Shown here one piece after another: positions 44,828 through 52,437 of a stretch of 64,000 nt of DNA (its first letter is position 1; every line of letters starts with the position of its first letter). A model generated the notes under the pieces. It worked only from the letters and a program-made list of their open reading frames with translations, had not been told where the DNA came from and ran no database searches. The position numbers and the translations under genes are program-made. This DNA comes from Bacteroidota bacterium (lineage in GTDB: Bacteria > Bacteroidota > Ignavibacteria > SZUA-365). The stretch is taken from the NCBI GenBank assembly GCA_003246455.1, contig QKAF01000055.1, positions 62,001-126,000 of the forward strand. The letters run 5' to 3'.

Positions 44828-47461
44828 TCAGAAGGCGAATCCCGCGGCGACGTCGACGCGCGTGTTTTCGGCGGAATGGCCGATGGAGGCGCTGATGGTG
44901 AACTCGCGGTCCACGGGAGCGATCCAGATCCCTCCGCCCCAGGAAGGGTGCCAGCGTTCCGAGATCTCTCCTTCGACGAAGACCCTTCCGGTCTCGCCGA
45001 AGGCAAGGAGGCCGATCTCCGTCGGGAAAATGATCTGCAAGTCCGTCAGGGGCATACGAAGCTCGAGGCCGGAGTACAGCATCGCATCTCCCGCGTACCG
45101 GTTGACCTCGTAGCCGCGTGCGGAGGCGAGACCGCCGAGAAAGGCCGCTTCAAAAAACGGGTAGCCGCGTGAGAGCTGTTGTCCGCCGCCGCGGATTGCG
45201 ATCGTTGCCGGGAAGGGGAAGCTCGTCGAAAAATAGCCGGCTGCTTCGGCGCGTGTGCTCGAGAATCCCGTTTTCAGATCGAGCATGCCTGGGAAGTACT
45301 TTCCGGAAATCATGGCATAAAATCCGCAGGAAGGCCACGCACGGCTGTCCCGCGTATCCCAGGATACGGATGTTTCGACATTGAGCAGCGTGGTCTGTTT
45401 GTACCCGAACGGTCTGAGTTCGTTGAGGTACAATCGGCCGTCGTCCAGATCGTTGGTGACGAGGCGCAGGGATGCGCCGACGCTGGCATGAAGGGCAGGC
45501 AGGATATGAATCCGCATGGAGGGGGAGAAAAAGACCTGCGTCTGCTTCACGGCATAGCGATACCCGGCATGGTTCCTTCCGGCGGTCTCGTTTCCGGAGC
45601 CGAAGAAATGAATGACCTCGAAGCCGCTGATGCCGACGTCCGCGTGCAGTTCCGCACCGGGCAGCGCGTTTCTGAAATCGAAATCCACCACGGCTTTCCC
45701 CAGCATTTCGAGCGGCGCCAAACCGGCGTTCATCCTGATCCTGTACGCGTACGGATCGCATCGGAAGCCGTAGCGGGTGTACACCGCACCGCCGCCGAAG
45801 AGGATGCCGAGATCCGCATCCCAGGCCCCCATGAGTCCGGGAAGCCATTCGGCACCCCAATCCCGCAGCGCCGGTTCATACCGCTCCTGCGGCGTCCGTG
45901 GCTTCGGACTGGCGGTACGGTCCACCACCGTGCTGACGCCGCGGCGCAGCTCGGTGCCGTCTCCGGCGTCGTAAACGAGATTGGCCTTGGAAGGAACATC
46001 GAACGGCAGAAATCCGAGCAGCGGGGACTCGACAAGGGAACTGTCGATGATGCGATCCTCTCCCTTTCCTCCAACCACGCGGATGACGATGCCTTCGGGA
46101 GAGGTCCCTTGAAGAATACAGACATCGTCACCGCCCTCGAGGTAGATGCGAATCTCCCGCGTTTCATCGCGATGGAATGTGCGTTCGAAGAAGACCGCTT
46201 CGGTTTCACTGTGCTTTCCGGGTTGGAGACTCCGGGCGGTCACGCTGACATCGCCGTTCATATCCCGCCGCACGATCACCTGTTCGTCTTCATCGCTGCA
46301 GTGTATGTCCGTTTCCTCCGTCAGGACGTCATAATATGCGTGTGCCGCGTCGGTGAGTCGGTCTCTTCGGGATTTCAGCACCGAGAGCAGTTCGTCCCCG
46401 GCCGCGAGGAGGATCCGGTTGCCGTCCGGAGTGGCTCCGCCGGGGAGACGCGTGACGGCGGAGGCTAGCAGGGAATCGTTCAGGACGGGAAGAAGAACGT
46501 TCAGGAGAGAGTCGTACACGGGCCAGGGGAGGCAGCTGAGAATGCGGCGGTCGAGATGCCGGCCGCTGTAGGTGAGATACTGAAGCTGCGGATACGAGGC
46601 ATCGCAGCTTTCGATCTGCGGCACCGCGAATGTCGCCAGCCAGGGAATCAGGCCGTCATAGCGGCAGAATGCCTGATCGCGATCACGCGGAATGGGATAC
46701 CACCAGTCGATCGCGCCATCCTCGTATCGCGCCCATCGCCACTGGTCGGTGTGGCGGTCCCAGTCGCCCATGAATATATCGAGGAGCCGCGCTTTCAGAT
46801 ATGAGACCGCATGCACGCGGTCGTCCGTGTGTTTCTGCAGTTTGTCGAGCAGTGAGAACGTCCCGACGACCTTGTCGGATCCCGCGAAGGCGGCGTCTTC
46901 ATCATCCGATTCGTTCGGATGTATTTCGATCATCCCGAGGCTGTTTGCGAATTCCGCTCGATAATCGCCGAGCAGAGGACTGTCCGGCATGATCACCAGC
47001 CGCGGCTCTGCCTGCAGGATTTCCGCCGCCTCGAGAATGGGAGCGGTGACGAGCGCACCGTAGGGATTGGCCGTGCTGATGAGGTCCTGCAGCACATCGG
47101 CGACAAAGGTGTTCCGCAGTTCCGGGGCAAGGACTTTGGAAGGGTCCTTCTCTATCGAACGGAATTTATACTCCCGTCCGTCGCCGCCGCGCAGGCGCAG
47201 CGAATTCGTCTGGAATCCTCCCCCGCGGCGGAGCGGCGTCAGTCCTCCGGCGTCATGCTCGAGGTCGAGCACGGGAACCCGGACCGGGGCCGTCCAGGTG
47301 TCGCGCCAGAGACTGCCGAAAAACAGGCGATGGACAGCACCGGCGTCATACTGCGTTCCTGCGGTGACCGTCCGCTCCTCGGCAGACTGCCCGGGGGCAT
47401 CCGTCGCCGCAAGCGAAAGAAAACAGACGAGAGCAATGGCGGCGATGCAGCGGCATTGCAT
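44828..47461 (-). CDS. Kinase-like (FAM20/HipA-type core) domain fused to Omp85-type barrel
   Basis: An exported protein of 877 residues with an unusual plan. After a signal peptide (to ~27) comes a region of ~350 residues whose motifs resemble atypical secreted kinases: a lysine strand YKFRSIEKD (K99), the catalytic-loop-like MGDWDRHTDQW (D233-W241), and PIPRDRDQAF (acidic residues near 259-261) in the metal-binding position. FAM20C has similar GNxDRHxxE and DNGRGF motifs, and HipA-fold kinases a comparable spacing. A middle beta domain (450-560) follows, then a barrel from ~590 with Omp85 surface-antigen traits, ending VDVAAGFAF. I know this architecture from other FCB genomes only as uncharacterised proteins. 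Kinase activity is an inference from motifs. It is divergent from the PAP2 gene. Confidence 0.8.
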   Translation of the reverse strand: MQCRCIAAIALVCFLSLAATDAPGQSAEERTVTAGTQYDAGAVHRLFFGSLWRDTWTAPVRVPVLDLEHDAGGLTPLRRGGGFQTNSLRLRGGDGREYKFRSIEKDPSKVLAPELRNTFVADVLQDLISTANPYGALVTAPILEAAEILQAEPRLVIMPDSPLLGDYRAEFANSLGMIEIHPNESDDEDAAFAGSDKVVGTFSLLDKLQKHTDDRVHAVSYLKARLLDIFMGDWDRHTDQWRWARYEDGAIDWWYPIPRDRDQAFCRYDGLIPWLATFAVPQIESCDASYPQLQYLTYSGRHLDRRILSCLPWPVYDSLLNVLLPVLNDSLLASAVTRLPGGATPDGNRILLAAGDELLSVLKSRRDRLTDAAHAYYDVLTEETDIHCSDEDEQVIVRRDMNGDVSVTARSLQPGKHSETEAVFFERTFHRDETREIRIYLEGGDDVCILQGTSPEGIVIRVVGGKGEDRIIDSSLVESPLLGFLPFDVPSKANLVYDAGDGTELRRGVSTVVDRTASPKPRTPQERYEPALRDWGAEWLPGLMGAWDADLGILFGGGAVYTRYGFRCDPYAYRIRMNAGLAPLEMLGKAVVDFDFRNALPGAELHADVGISGFEVIHFFGSGNETAGRNHAGYRYAVKQTQVFFSPSMRIHILPALHASVGASLRLVTNDLDDGRLYLNELRPFGYKQTTLLNVETSVSWDTRDSRAWPSCGFYAMISGKYFPGMLDLKTGFSSTRAEAAGYFSTSFPFPATIAIRGGGQQLSRGYPFFEAAFLGGLASARGYEVNRYAGDAMLYSGLELRMPLTDLQIIFPTEIGLLAFGETGRVFVEGEISERWHPSWGGGIWIAPVDREFTISASIGHSAENTRVDVAAGFAF

Positions 47462-47650
47462 GCGATTGCCGCGGAAGCTTCCCGCGGTGAAACAGGCGAC
47501 GCGGTCATCGGACCATGCCGGTGATCCGGATGCAGATATAACGGTGTGATTCTCGAGCATACGCAACGCACAATATACGTGCTGCCGGGCGAAATGGCCA
47601 CGCATGCGGTGGGGTTTGGAATGGAAGCACTTTGCGTGCTACTTTTCCGC

Positions 47651-48493
47651 ATGTCGAAATTGATGTGTGTCCGCACAGCGGTCATGGTTCTGCACCTTCT
47701 CTTTGCCGCCTTTCCGTCTGCAGCATCTCAGCCGGGGGATGGGGACAGTACACGTACGATCCTCGGCACGGTTCTGGACGATGTGACGGTGGTCGGGGAG
47801 GATGGACTGGCGTTTCTGCTCGCGCCGCTGTCGTTCGGGAAAACGGACTTCCTTCGGCTCGGAGCCGTCGTTGCCGGCACGGGCGGGCTGATGATTTTCG
47901 ACGAGGATCTGCAGACACTGCCGCGGCGAAATCAGACCCCCACGCTGCAGTCTCTGAGCAACGCGTTCAATTACGGCGGACACCTGCCTTCCGCCGAGAT
48001 CGCGACCGCGGCGATATACCTTGCGGGGCTCGTCAGCGGAGATGAGGAGATACGCGTTACGGGCCGCATGCTCGCGCAGTCACTCATCTATTCGGGCTCG
48101 ATCTATCTGATTCTTCGAACGCTTGCCGGCCGTCATCGCCCGTTTTCTCATGATGGCGCCTACACGTTCGATACCGGAGAGACGGATAATACATACCAGT
48201 CGTTTCCCTCGGGTCACACGACAGTTGCGTTTTCTCTTGCGAGTGTTCTGTCGGCGCGCATCGACCACCCGGTGGCCTCGGTGCTCCTGTACGGCGCCGC
48301 GGCGATGACCGGCCTGAGCCGGATCTACCAGGATAATCACTGGACCTCGGATGTATTTTTCGGCGCCGTGCTCGGTACCGTTTCCGGTCTTTTCGTGCAA
48401 AAGCGGGAGAAGCATCGGGCGGACGGAAGCATGGATGAACGCTGGTCGCTCACTCCGACCGGAAACGGACTTACTCTTACCGTGCGCCTTTAA
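47651..48493 (+). CDS. PAP2-family phosphatase
   Basis: A membrane or periplasmic acid phosphatase of about 280 residues, probably acting on a lipid phosphate such as undecaprenyl diphosphate, phosphatidate or a lipid A phosphate. Motif 2 is FPSGHT and motif 3 is SRIYQDNHWTSDVFFG. Motif 1 is RTLAGRHRPF, where the usual first Lys is Arg, a conservative change. The N terminus has a signal-like segment (MSKLMCVRTAVMVLHLLFAAFPSAAS), and several hydrophobic helices surround the motifs. The start at 47651 gives that segment directly. The sixA-like gene starts 13 bp later, so they are one unit. Confidence 0.9.
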   Translation: MSKLMCVRTAVMVLHLLFAAFPSAASQPGDGDSTRTILGTVLDDVTVVGEDGLAFLLAPLSFGKTDFLRLGAVVAGTGGLMIFDEDLQTLPRRNQTPTLQSLSNAFNYGGHLPSAEIATAAIYLAGLVSGDEEIRVTGRMLAQSLIYSGSIYLILRTLAGRHRPFSHDGAYTFDTGETDNTYQSFPSGHTTVAFSLASVLSARIDHPVASVLLYGAAAMTGLSRIYQDNHWTSDVFFGAVLGTVSGLFVQKREKHRADGSMDERWSLTPTGNGLTLTVRL

Positions 48494-48506: not shown

Positions 48507-49001
48507 ATGAAGACACTTTATATCGTACGACACGCGAAGTCGAGCTGGAGCCATGCGGATCTGACGGATTTCGAAAGACCCCTGAATGCCCGCGGGCACG
48601 CGGATGCACCTCGGATGGGGAGCACGCTGAACAATCTCGGCGCGAAGCCGACGATCATTCGAACGAGTGCGGCAAACCGTGCCGTGACCACCGCCAGGCT
48701 TCTGGCCGGTGCGCTGCAGTTTCCCGTCGAAGCGATCGACGTGGATGCATCGATGTACGGCGCGGGACCCGTGGAGATCATCGCCCTGATACGCGAACTC
48801 CCGGATACGGCGACGGAAGTCATGTTCGTCGGGCACAATCCCACCATGCATATCCTGGCACACCGCCTCGCGGGTTTTCAGGGAGACAACATCCCGACGT
48901 GCGGTGTCGTCTGCGTCGATTTCGACGTCGAGCATTGGAAGGATGCGGCTGCGGAGCAGGGTGTGCTCCGGTATTTCGAGTACCCGAAAAAGAACCACTG
49001 A
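48507..49001 (+). CDS. SixA-like histidine phosphatase
   Basis: A 164-residue histidine-phosphatase-superfamily enzyme in the short SixA branch. The catalytic motif is IVRHAKSSW with the phospho-accepting His at residue 9, RPLNARG follows, and the second active-site histidine lies in VMFVGHNPTMHILAH. SixA removes phosphate from phosphohistidine, for example on Npr-type phosphotransfer proteins, but other SixA-like proteins have different targets. No phosphotransferase genes are nearby. It sits between the PAP2 gene (13 bp) and ppk1 (36 bp), so the three are probably co-transcribed. Confidence 0.9.
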   Translation: MKTLYIVRHAKSSWSHADLTDFERPLNARGHADAPRMGSTLNNLGAKPTIIRTSAANRAVTTARLLAGALQFPVEAIDVDASMYGAGPVEIIALIRELPDTATEVMFVGHNPTMHILAHRLAGFQGDNIPTCGVVCVDFDVEHWKDAAAEQGVLRYFEYPKKNH

Positions 49002-49037: not shown

Positions 49038-51116
49038 ATGGCCAGACAGGATCCGTTATTTGACCGTGAACTCAGCTGGACCGCTTTCAACGGACGCGTG
49101 CTGCAGGAAGCGGCTGATCCGCGCGTCCCGCTGTACGAGCGGCTGAAATTTCTTGCGATTTACTCGTCGAACCTGGATGAGTTCTTTCGTGTCCGCGTTG
49201 CCGGCCTTCGCAGTCTCATGTCACTGGCGCCGAAACGCCGCAGGGATCTCGAACTCGATCCTGCCGCCCTGCTCGAGCAGATCTATGCGGCAGTCGATGT
49301 GCAGCAATCCGCATTCGGAAAAATCTTCGCCGCGTGCCGAGAGGAACTCCGCGCGCGCGGGATTGATCTGCTCGAGGATACCGATCTCAGCGAATCCCGG
49401 CTCCTGTTCATCCATACGTTTTTCCGCGAGTACGTCCAGCCGTTCATTCAACCGGCGCGGCTGAAGCGAAAATCCGCGGATACCTTTCTGCGGAACCGGG
49501 CGCTGTATCTCATCGCCGAACTGCGGCCGCTTCAGCCGGGAGGGCGGTGTTCGCTTGGACGCGTAACGATTCCGACGGATGAACTGCCGCGCTTCATCAC
49601 ACTGCCGGAAGAGGACGGGCGGATCGGTGTAATGTTTCTCGACGATGTGGTGCGCATGCACCTGCAGCTGGTGTTCGAGGACTGTGAAGTGCTGCATGCC
49701 TTCGCCGTGAAACTCAATCGCGACGCGGACCTCCGCATTGAAGACGAATTCTCCGGTGACCTCGTGAAAAAAATCCGCCAGGCGCTGAATTCCCGTGAAA
49801 CCGGTGTGCCCGCACGCTTTCTTTACGATCCCGCCATGCCTCCGTCGATGCTCAAGCGCGTGCGGCGTTTCTACCACCTGGAGAAAGCGGATCTGTTTCC
49901 CGGCGGTCGGTATCACAATTTCCATGATCTTTTTTCCTTCCCGGATCCCGTCGGTCCGGATGTACATGATCCGTCTCTCTCGCCGCTGATCTACGGACCC
50001 TTCGCCGAGGCTCCGTCGATGTTCGCCGCGGTGGCCGACCGGGATCACCTTCTCCACTTCCCGTATCAGCAGTATGATCCGGTGATCCGCATGCTTGAGG
50101 AAGCCGCGGTCGATCCGGACGTGGACCGCATCGCGATCACCCTGTATCGCATCGCCGCGCATTCGCGTATCGCGGAGGCACTGATTACCGCGGCGCGTTC
50201 GGGCAAGCGCGTTCGCGTGTTCATGGAGATCAAGGCCCGTTTTGACGAGGAGGCAAACATTGAATGGGCGGAGCGGCTGAAAGATGCCGGCGCGGAAGTG
50301 CTCTACAGCATCCCGGGACTGAAGGTTCACGCGAAACTGTACCTCATCGTCCGCCGGGAGCGCGGGAAAGAGCGGCTCTACGCATATCTCGGGACGGGAA
50401 ATTTCAACGAAAAAACTGCGGGACTGTACGCCGATCACGGCTACTTCACCGCCGAGTCGAAAATCACGAGGGAGGTAGCCGCGATTTTCGAGATTCTGTC
50501 AAAGCAGCGCATCGGCTTCGAATTCGAACACCTTGCCGTCGCACAGTTCAATCTCCGGTCGGAGATCAACCGCATGATCGACCGCGAGATCGCGCATGCC
50601 CGTGCAGGTCGGGAAGCGCGGATATTCATGAAAATGAACAGTCTCGAAGATCCGAAGATCATCCGTCGCCTGTATCGTGCATCGCGCGCGGGTGTGCAGG
50701 TCCGACTGATTATCCGCGGCATATGCTGCCTCGTACCGGGCATTGCCGGTGTAAGTGAAAACATCCGTGCCACTTCCGTCATCGACCGATATCTCGAGCA
50801 CGCGCGGATCTATGTCTTCCACAACGACGGTGCGGATGATATGTACCTCGCTTCCGCCGATATGATGCGGCGCAATCTCAACCGCAGGATCGAAGTGATG
50901 TTTCCGCTTCGGGACGAGGCCCTGCGCCGCGAACTTTCGGACATCGTCGACCTTCAAAAGGGCGATTCGGTAAAGGCGCGGATTATCAACGCCGCACAAG
51001 ACAATCCCTATGACGACTGTGCATCGGGTCCTGCATCCCAGTCCGCGATCTGGCAGTACCTTGCGTCTCTCGGGCACAATACCATACCGAGCGATGCAGA
51101 AGACACCGCCGTTTGA
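49038..51116 (+). CDS. ppk1: Polyphosphate kinase 1
   Basis: Ppk1 reversibly makes inorganic polyphosphate from ATP and is tied to stress survival and motility. The 692-residue protein starts with the FDRELSWTAFNGRVLQEA block. The tunnel-forming and phospholipase D-like domains follow with TLYRIAAHSRIAEALI, GLKVHAKLYLIVRR (autophosphorylated His431), YLGTGNFNEKTAGLYADHG in part, RIYVFHNDGADDMYLASADMM in part (the EH before it is H588), and the final NRRIEVMFPL. Size and motif order are normal. GGAGG lies shortly upstream of the ATG. Its 3' end is followed by a candidate promoter for the HD-domain gene. Confidence 0.97.
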   Translation: MARQDPLFDRELSWTAFNGRVLQEAADPRVPLYERLKFLAIYSSNLDEFFRVRVAGLRSLMSLAPKRRRDLELDPAALLEQIYAAVDVQQSAFGKIFAACREELRARGIDLLEDTDLSESRLLFIHTFFREYVQPFIQPARLKRKSADTFLRNRALYLIAELRPLQPGGRCSLGRVTIPTDELPRFITLPEEDGRIGVMFLDDVVRMHLQLVFEDCEVLHAFAVKLNRDADLRIEDEFSGDLVKKIRQALNSRETGVPARFLYDPAMPPSMLKRVRRFYHLEKADLFPGGRYHNFHDLFSFPDPVGPDVHDPSLSPLIYGPFAEAPSMFAAVADRDHLLHFPYQQYDPVIRMLEEAAVDPDVDRIAITLYRIAAHSRIAEALITAARSGKRVRVFMEIKARFDEEANIEWAERLKDAGAEVLYSIPGLKVHAKLYLIVRRERGKERLYAYLGTGNFNEKTAGLYADHGYFTAESKITREVAAIFEILSKQRIGFEFEHLAVAQFNLRSEINRMIDREIAHARAGREARIFMKMNSLEDPKIIRRLYRASRAGVQVRLIIRGICCLVPGIAGVSENIRATSVIDRYLEHARIYVFHNDGADDMYLASADMMRRNLNRRIEVMFPLRDEALRRELSDIVDLQKGDSVKARIINAAQDNPYDDCASGPASQSAIWQYLASLGHNTIPSDAEDTAV

Positions 51117-51145
51117 TTGCGATAACGTGCCGAACGTCCTATTTT
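51117..51145 (+). promoter_or_regulatory. Candidate sigma-70-type promoter for the HD/PycTM gene
   Basis: TTGCGA at 51117-51122 and TATTTT at 51140-51145 are 17 bp apart, each matching four of six consensus positions. The predicted start would be about 51152, leaving a short leader of roughly 23 nt to the ATG at 51175. It begins directly after the ppk1 stop, so the HD/PycTM gene could be transcribed both with ppk1 and independently. Confidence 0.38.
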
Positions 51146-51174
51146 TCAGAATACTTGAACCAACGAGTTTTGTC

Positions 51175-52437
51175 ATGGCCGAAAATCGCGAATCCATCGT
51201 CGAGCTTGCCGCAGCGTATGTGACAGACCTCTTCCGCGACCGTCTCGACGACCGCTACACCTATCACAATACCACGCACACCCGTGAGGTGGCCGAAGCC
51301 GCCGAGGAAATCGGAAGAGCTTCCGGACTCGACAGTGAGGAAATCGAAACGGTGCTCCTGGCCGCATGGTTTCATGACTGCGGGATCACCCGCGCCTATA
51401 AACCGCATGAACCGCACAGCGTGGATATCGCAACGGAGTTCCTGACGGCTCACGATGCTGCTCCGGAGCGCATCGAGGCTGTTCGACGATACATCCTTGC
51501 AACCGATCTGCATGTGAACCCGGCAACACTTTCTGAACAGGTGCTTTGTGACGCGGATCTTCTGCATACCGGGACGAAGCGATTCTGGGAGCATTCCACG
51601 GCCTTGCGCGACGAATGGGGATACATGATCGGGGAGCATTTTACGGACGAGCAGTGGTATCGAAAACAGATCAAGTTTCTGACGGGACGTAGATTTCATA
51701 CCGCGTACGCACAGGAACAGTACCAGGAAGGTCTGGAGCGCAACCTGGAAAAACTGCACAGGAGATTGAGAAAACTCGAGGAGTCCGCAGACGTGCAAGA
51801 GAAATCATCAGGGAAGAAGGGGAAGGGGAAAGCGAAAGGCGACCGGCAGGAGAAGCAGGATGAGGGGATTCTCGGAAAAGGGGACAGAGGGGTCGAAACC
51901 ATGTTTCGCATCACTTCCCGGAATCATGTCGAGTTCAGCAACATGGTGGACAGCAAGGCCAACATCATGATCAGCATCAACACGCTGGTGATCTCGGTGG
52001 TGATCAGCGTCCTGTTCCGCAAGCTCGATACGAATACGTACATGACGATTCCCACCTTCGTATTTCTTGCGGTCTGTCTGCTGACGATCGTCTACGCGGT
52101 GCTCGCCTCGCGCCCGAAAGTCACGACAGGCGTATTCACGCGGGAGGATATCACCAGCAAGCGCGCCAATCTCCTGTTCTTCGGAAATTTCTACCGCGTG
52201 CCGGTGGAGGAGTTTGAGTGGGGAATGCGCGAGATGCTCAAGGACAAGGACTACCTGTACGACAGCATGATCCGCGACTTTTATTTTCTCGGGCAGGTAC
52301 TCGGAAAAAAATACCAGTATCTCCGGATATCCTACAACATCTTCATGTATGGATTCGTGTTCTCTATCCTGCTGTACGTGGTGATGTTCCTCGTGTTCGC
52401 GGAAAACCCGGTCGACATCCTTCCTCTCGTCCCCTAG
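51175..52437 (+). CDS. HD-domain phosphohydrolase fused to Pycsar-effector-type membrane domain (DUF5706)
   Basis: A 420-residue membrane protein. Residues 1-190 are an HD domain: YHNTTHTREV (H31, H35), WFHDCG (H67, D68), then CDADLLH (D126, D128), a full metal-binding set, so it should hydrolyse a nucleotide or phosphoester. A highly charged Lys/Glu/Gly linker spans ~195-238. The C-terminal part (241-409) is the DUF5706/PycTM module used by Pycsar anti-phage effectors. It has NHVEFSNMVDSKANIMISIN in part, two helices (~262-283 and 290-312), GNFYRVPVEEFEWGMREML in part, DYLYDSMIRDFYFLG, and a third helix (386-409). No adenylate or uridylate cyclase is adjacent. HD-PycTM fusions recur in Bacteroidota and their signal is unknown. 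Confidence 0.88.
   Translation: MAENRESIVELAAAYVTDLFRDRLDDRYTYHNTTHTREVAEAAEEIGRASGLDSEEIETVLLAAWFHDCGITRAYKPHEPHSVDIATEFLTAHDAAPERIEAVRRYILATDLHVNPATLSEQVLCDADLLHTGTKRFWEHSTALRDEWGYMIGEHFTDEQWYRKQIKFLTGRRFHTAYAQEQYQEGLERNLEKLHRRLRKLEESADVQEKSSGKKGKGKAKGDRQEKQDEGILGKGDRGVETMFRITSRNHVEFSNMVDSKANIMISINTLVISVVISVLFRKLDTNTYMTIPTFVFLAVCLLTIVYAVLASRPKVTTGVFTREDITSKRANLLFFGNFYRVPVEEFEWGMREMLKDKDYLYDSMIRDFYFLGQVLGKKYQYLRISYNIFMYGFVFSILLYVVMFLVFAENPVDILPLVP

Follow-up and report, generated by a model that had tools for sequence, protein, structure and literature searches.

The gene P0001 (positions 44828–47461, minus strand), which lies in the 64,000-nucleotide stretch of DNA analysed here (the window), probably encodes an exported, outer membrane (OM)-tethered and periplasm-facing enzyme of the atypical kinase superfamily, engaged in an envelope phosphotransfer that is tied to polyphosphate or phosphate. 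Our computations give a predicted kinase fold, invariant active-site residues, an Omp85 barrel, linkage to the polyphosphate kinase PPK1 and fusion or adjacency to a metallophosphoesterase, while the transfer, its donor and its substrate are inferred.

Domain organisation of P0001

The 877-residue open reading frame of the original prediction is borne out, and an alternative upstream ATG would lengthen it to position 47605. Antisense ORFs opposite the gene (e.g., 45179–46468 on the plus strand) were taken as chance frames without a homology search. All features of P0001 given below lie on the minus strand. Residues 1–24 (MQCRCIAAIALVCFLSLAATDAPG; 47390–47461) form a probable Sec signal peptide, with a basic residue, a hydrophobic core and small residues, as read by eye without a predictor. 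A kinase-fold domain (residues 29–382; 46316–47377), for which the top Foldseek matches are all kinases, is followed by an all-β linker domain (residues 383–505; 45947–46315), delimited from the secondary structure of the model and without the POTRA-like β-α-α-β-β pattern, and then by a 16-stranded Omp85 barrel (residues 537–877; 44831–45853), assigned from the Pfam Omp85 match, the model strands and fold matches. Searches of P0001 against Pfam and NCBIfam returned no named family in residues 1–630, and Pfam searches of 84 relatives gave no consistent match over the kinase-fold region. Among the weak Pfam matches of single members in that set, DUF4135 (E = 0.05) was the sole family of the PKinase clan, its clan membership being taken from PMC9758233. 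The kinase-fold domain was also unmatched in PADLOC, so that a role in defence is unsupported.

A predicted kinase fold

The AlphaFold2 model of residues 29–510, built from an alignment of 84 sequences, reaches a pLDDT of 93.0 and a pTM of 0.93. It starts, in the order of a kinase, with two strands joined via a glycine loop, a third strand running to R101-S102 and the helix bearing D126, and continues with two strands, a helix with R225 and D228, the GDWDRHTDQ loop, two further strands, the RDRDQAF segment and a helical lobe. All 12 matches in the PDB at E ≤ 0.001 by Foldseek are kinase folds, mostly atypical ones, comprising six chains of CtkA, three of the Fam20 Golgi casein kinase, PI4KII-alpha, CotH and RIO2, and a phage PI3/4-kinase ranks first in the viral library. 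The atypical kinase-like core that had been proposed from the letters alone is thereby upheld, and a fold unrelated to kinases, which would have refuted it, was not found.

The best structural match is CtkA, the proinflammatory kinase of Helicobacter pylori (PDB 3akj, 3akk and 3akl; E = 1e-5), with TM-scores on CtkA of 0.51–0.57, modest values of the kind that a distant relation would give. CtkA is also the best profile match in the PDB, at a non-significant E of 0.23, with its D155-R156-H157 placed under the P0001 motif. The two proteins share a G-x-x-D-R-H-x-x-N/Q-W catalytic loop at about 12–14% identity, but P0001 has G-D before the DRH where CtkA has G-N, and DRD where CtkA has D-C-G, and CtkA carries no barrel. 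The FAM20 Golgi kinases (4kqa/4kqb and 5yh2; best chain E = 1.5e-4) and CotH (5jd9; best chain E = 2.6e-4) match in fold and are, as P0001 is inferred to be, kinases of exported compartments, although neither has a barrel; the FAM20C motif has the DRH and D-x-x-x-x-F spacing of P0001. Type II PI4-kinases (4hnd and 8a5x) match in fold as well, and HipA homologues share with P0001 a D-x-H-x-x-N/Q loop and a Pro-then-Asp metal motif.

At the level of sequence these likenesses fade. The profile–profile search suggested as a check gave no significant support, neither with CtkA nor with the HipA homologues, for which hhalign returned E = 0.42, no better than reversed controls. In Pfam, none of the 84 members matched HipA_C (PF07804) at E ≤ 0.1, nor did any match Fam20C (PF06702), CotH (PF08757) or PI3_PI4, so that the FAM20 and CotH likenesses are structural only. 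Membership of the HipA, FAM20 or CotH families by sequence was accordingly rejected. A search for the Fam20C family in 99 genomes of the phylum found no match and is uninformative, the control genomes being blank too. With no significant homology to kinases in sequence, the case for a kinase rests on predicted structure. Two features of the protein kinase-like (PKL) superfamily are fulfilled, namely a two-lobe kinase fold, as seen in the model and its PDB matches, and a conserved catalytic-loop acid with a downstream metal-binding Asp, for which D233 and D260/D262 (85/85) and D235 (79/85) qualify.

Conservation of the active site

Across 85 sequences from several phyla (P0001 numbering), R101, K105, E179, D228, D233, D260 and D262 are invariant. 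The glycine-rich β1–β2 loop GGGFQT (residues 80–85; 47207–47224) lies between two model strands, with G80–G82 kept in 82–83 of the 85. R101, on β3, and K105, just past it (47147–47161), are the candidates for the ATP-binding lysine; K99, which the original prediction had put forward, is present but conserved in only 13/85 and was rejected as the catalytic lysine. The in-strand β3 position seems to be Arg (R101) and not Lys. The acid of the αC-position helix (model residues 91–102) is D126 (47084–47086), which is Asp in 83 sequences and Glu in two. For a β3 Lys paired with an αC acid, a further PKL feature, the alignment shows invariant R101 and K105 and an acid throughout at position 126, without saying which residues pair.

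Both motifs highlighted in the original prediction stand where it placed them, MGDWDRHTDQW at residues 231–241, within the catalytic loop MGDWDRHTDQWRW (residues 231–243; 46733–46771), and PIPRDRDQAF at residues 256–265 (46667–46696), after model strand β8. The metal-site aspartates had been numbered one position too low, residues 259 and 261 both being arginine and the true aspartates D260 and D262. Poor conservation of the catalytic residues, the other result named in advance as refuting, did not occur overall: H237 is kept in 83/85 (Ser in the other two) and D235, which aligns with the catalytic Asp in both CtkA and HipA, in 79/85, while position 240 is Gln in 76 and Asn in nine. The motifs exceed what chance would give, with four invariant aspartates (D228, D233, D260 and D262) and a nearly invariant H237 over several phyla. 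In the remaining six sequences, five from Hymenobacter and one from Flavisolibacter, D235 is replaced by Gly, whereas D233, the histidine and an Asn or Gln at position 240 are retained. These loci (L055, L062, L066, L077 and L091 in Hymenobacter, L105 in Flavisolibacter) show motifs such as ADFGKH and GDWGRH. They could be pseudokinases, or their catalytic Asp could have moved to another position.

These counts carry a selection bias, because the 80 loci retrieved by pattern were each chosen on one of two motifs (DWDRHxDQ or P[RM]DRDQ[AV]F). As an unselected check we used 21 relatives found via whole-protein similarity: in the 13 closest, K105, D233, D235, H237, D260 and D262 are all invariant, and the most distant paralogues (e.g., L015, L016, L029 and L030) differ at several catalytic positions, so that a divergent, possibly inactive subgroup exists. 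Paralogues L015, L016, L028, L029 and L030 come from the window's own class and have barrels, with loops such as GDWNRGAEQW and GDWEEGMDAW; in some genomes divergent paralogues co-occur with an intact copy. A further comparison is offered by 46 fusions to a metallophosphoesterase, in which the GNHD motif of the calcineurin-like phosphoesterase is lost in about a third (L096, L102 and others), whereas K105, D233, H237, D260 and D262 of the kinase-fold part never vary. The latter is therefore more strictly kept than its fused phosphoesterase, subject to the same bias.

The barrel and its orientation

The C-terminal Omp85 barrel of the original prediction is well supported, with a match to PF01103 at residues 637–828 (E = 6.9e-14; 52.5 bits against a cut-off of 24) and 16 barrel strands in the full-length model (pLDDT 91.6, pTM 0.89), whose barrel finds its best solved matches in BamA, SAM50 and TamA. 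P0001 thus shares a C-terminal, 16-stranded Omp85 barrel with BamA, TamA, SAM50 and the patatin–Omp85 protein PlpD, but where BamA, TamA and PlpD carry N-terminal POTRA domains it has a kinase-fold domain. No POTRA was matched by Pfam in P0001, and the model places the all-β linker between kinase and barrel; POTRA domains are not present in every member of the Omp85 superfamily. Both ends of the 16-stranded barrel are periplasmic in Omp85 proteins, and the kinase-fold domain, sitting N-terminal to such a barrel, would most likely face the periplasm, an orientation that relies on the predicted topology. Surface display in the manner of PlpD is not excluded.

Family size and architectures

Scanning public genomes with the two motif patterns returned at least 583 coding relatives, mostly in Bacteroidota, Ignavibacteria and Gemmatimonadota and in many cases joined to a metallophosphoesterase. 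The 80 loci kept for analysis come from Ignavibacteria, Gemmatimonadota, Calditrichaceae, Chlorobiaceae, many Bacteroidota and one record labelled Deltaproteobacteria. Sixty related genomes yielded 20 further places covering the kinase-fold region, in 17 genomes and mostly at full length, and the family is present in 48 of 138 genomes of a phylum-wide sample.

Four architectures recur. The kinase-fold domain may be joined to the barrel alone (about 880 residues) or preceded by a metallophosphoesterase in a single chain of about 1250 residues, as in the 46 kept fusions; a separate metallophosphoesterase gene may adjoin the kinase–barrel gene (L032 and L033); or the barrel may be absent (L067 and L082 minus strand, and L093). 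Barrel-less copies in the phylum sample span 426–586 residues. At one locus (G119:C27:62203-67015) three barrel-less kinase-fold genes follow one another, with open frames of 531, 550 and 586 residues, and at another (L148, G035:C7:152000-163000) a kinase-fold part, a phosphoesterase-like part and a barrel stand in line, with kinase and barrel in separate frames. A Riemerella anatipestifer metallophosphoesterase was considered as a possible family member, on the basis of its citation in PMC10281475 only.

Genomic linkage to PPK1

P0001 has as its divergent neighbour a PAP2-superfamily phosphatase (47546–48493; PF01569, E = 4.8e-20), followed, also on the plus strand, by a homologue of SixA-like histidine phosphatases (48507–48992; 38% identity to a cluster member by tblastn, the name coming from sequence reading), PPK1 (49038–51116; four PP_kinase Pfam domains, best E = 5.1e-67) and a membrane protein with HD and PycTM domains (51010–52437; PF18967, E = 9.9e-35, and PF01966, E = 1.4e-07), the true start of which is probably further in. 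The last of these combines an HD phosphohydrolase with a Pycsar effector domain and lies outside any obvious defence context. Over the 80 loci, neighbours include PPK1 at 21, HD-PycTM at 33, an SdiA-regulated-type protein at 32, SixA-like proteins at ten, PAP2 at six and Ppx at five, counts that are lower bounds because several contigs are short. The labels SixA, Ppx and SdiA-regulated were assigned by reading the sequences, with no family search behind them.

The kinase gene lies near PPK1 far more often than chance would have it, an association that is newly described here. The two are at most 2.1 kb apart in ten of 61 related genomes, that of the window included, with some of the close pairs head to head and others tail to tail. 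Both genes are present in 14 of the 61, one alone in five and in one, and neither in 41 (Fisher p = 7e-9, uncorrected for relatedness). Within the phylum sample, the pair occurs within 10 kb in five genomes (0.48 pairs expected) and within 20 kb in 15 (0.87 expected), ten of the 15 belonging to one family with identical spacing. A single inherited synteny is unlikely to account for the association, since a tree of PPK1 needs three or more label changes to explain the linked copies and sets the Gemmatimonadota and Hymenobacter lineages apart. Many members of the family lie away from PPK1. The source genome has two PPK1 genes of different clades (that of the window and G000:C123:3846-5783), and the copy beside the kinase gene falls in the clade most often linked to the kinase-fold/Omp85 family.

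Discussion

Kinase folds and Omp85 barrels are each known, and we found no description of their combination. In the literature searched, from which most subscription papers were outside scope, no architecture joins a kinase domain, PPK1 or a phosphoesterase with Omp85; the words kinase and metallophosph- are absent from the main text of the 2014 survey of the Omp85 superfamily (PMC4104836). The model would place the domain on the branch of the superfamily that holds CtkA/HipA, PI3/4-kinases and FAM20/CotH. We consider an active envelope phosphotransferase linked to polyphosphate or phosphate metabolism the most likely function, with catalysis inferred in the absence of activity data.

We tentatively propose the following mechanism. 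The 16-stranded barrel would anchor the protein in the OM, and the kinase domain may then pass a phosphoryl group, or with lower probability AMP, to a protein, glycan or lipid of the envelope, in a reaction that could depend on polyphosphate or phosphate status and that the metallophosphoesterase might reverse or balance. Periplasmic ATP being scarce, the donor could be polyphosphate or another non-ATP compound; polyphosphate is the attractive version, inferred while a periplasmic supply of either ATP or polyphosphate has not been shown. A bolder form, in which a large, unrecognised family of OM-tethered periplasmic kinases phosphorylates envelope targets from polyphosphate, or from a different non-ATP donor, that the linked PPK1 system would supply and is opposed by the fused phosphoesterase, brings these inferences together, and we put it forward as a conjecture with long odds.

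Against an active kinase stand the D235G and H237S replacements (six and two of the 85), the β3 Arg, the weak sequence homology, the modest TM-scores, the members that lie away from PPK1 and the lack of activity data. The main alternatives are a pseudokinase and an AMPylating enzyme, and the β3 Arg and the D235G sequences count in favour of both. The first three of the points above speak for a pseudokinase, whose kinase fold would act as a sensor or scaffold, with a nucleotide, polyphosphate or some phosphorylated ligand bound but no phosphate transferred. We regard this as unlikely while keeping it in play, as such a protein need not have held D233, D260, D262, R101 and K105 invariant over 85 divergent sequences, nor have kept its kinase residues where a third of the fused phosphoesterases have lost their catalytic motif. 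Another chemistry on the same fold has precedent in kinase-fold enzymes such as SelO, which performs AMPylation, and an AMP transfer from ATP could be read into a DRD motif that is unusual beside DFG or D-x-G; with no SelO-specific feature found and ordinary kinases ranking first in Foldseek, there is only a slim chance that it applies here. That the motif resemblance arose by chance on an unrelated fold is barely conceivable: the missing Pfam kinase match and the non-significant HipA comparison would allow it, but the model is of high confidence, its secondary structure follows the kinase order and the atypical kinases are precisely the solved structures that it matches best.

A different question, compatible with any catalytic reading, is whether the barrel exports the kinase domain onto the cell surface in the manner of a type Vd autotransporter. 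PlpD moves its patatin passenger to the surface in this way, P0001 has the same order of passenger then Omp85 barrel, and many Bacteroidota members bear a phosphoesterase passenger as well. Even so, a β domain follows the kinase in place of a POTRA, the full-length pTM of 0.89 fits a fixed arrangement of kinase and barrel, and standalone members without a barrel exist, all of which leave surface export improbable in our judgement.

Because the bacterial periplasm is considered poor in ATP, very little is known of protein or glycan phosphorylation on that side. A kinase fold with invariant active-site residues on an OM barrel, found at hundreds of loci across Bacteroidota and their sister groups and repeatedly linked to polyphosphate synthesis, makes the question of periplasmic phosphorylation testable. 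If the proposed activity is real, it would provide a function for one class of Omp85 proteins that lack POTRA domains, and for the phosphoesterase–kinase–barrel proteins of Bacteroidota, whose kinase part lies outside every Pfam family, and the P0001 family may thus represent an unrecognised envelope kinase.
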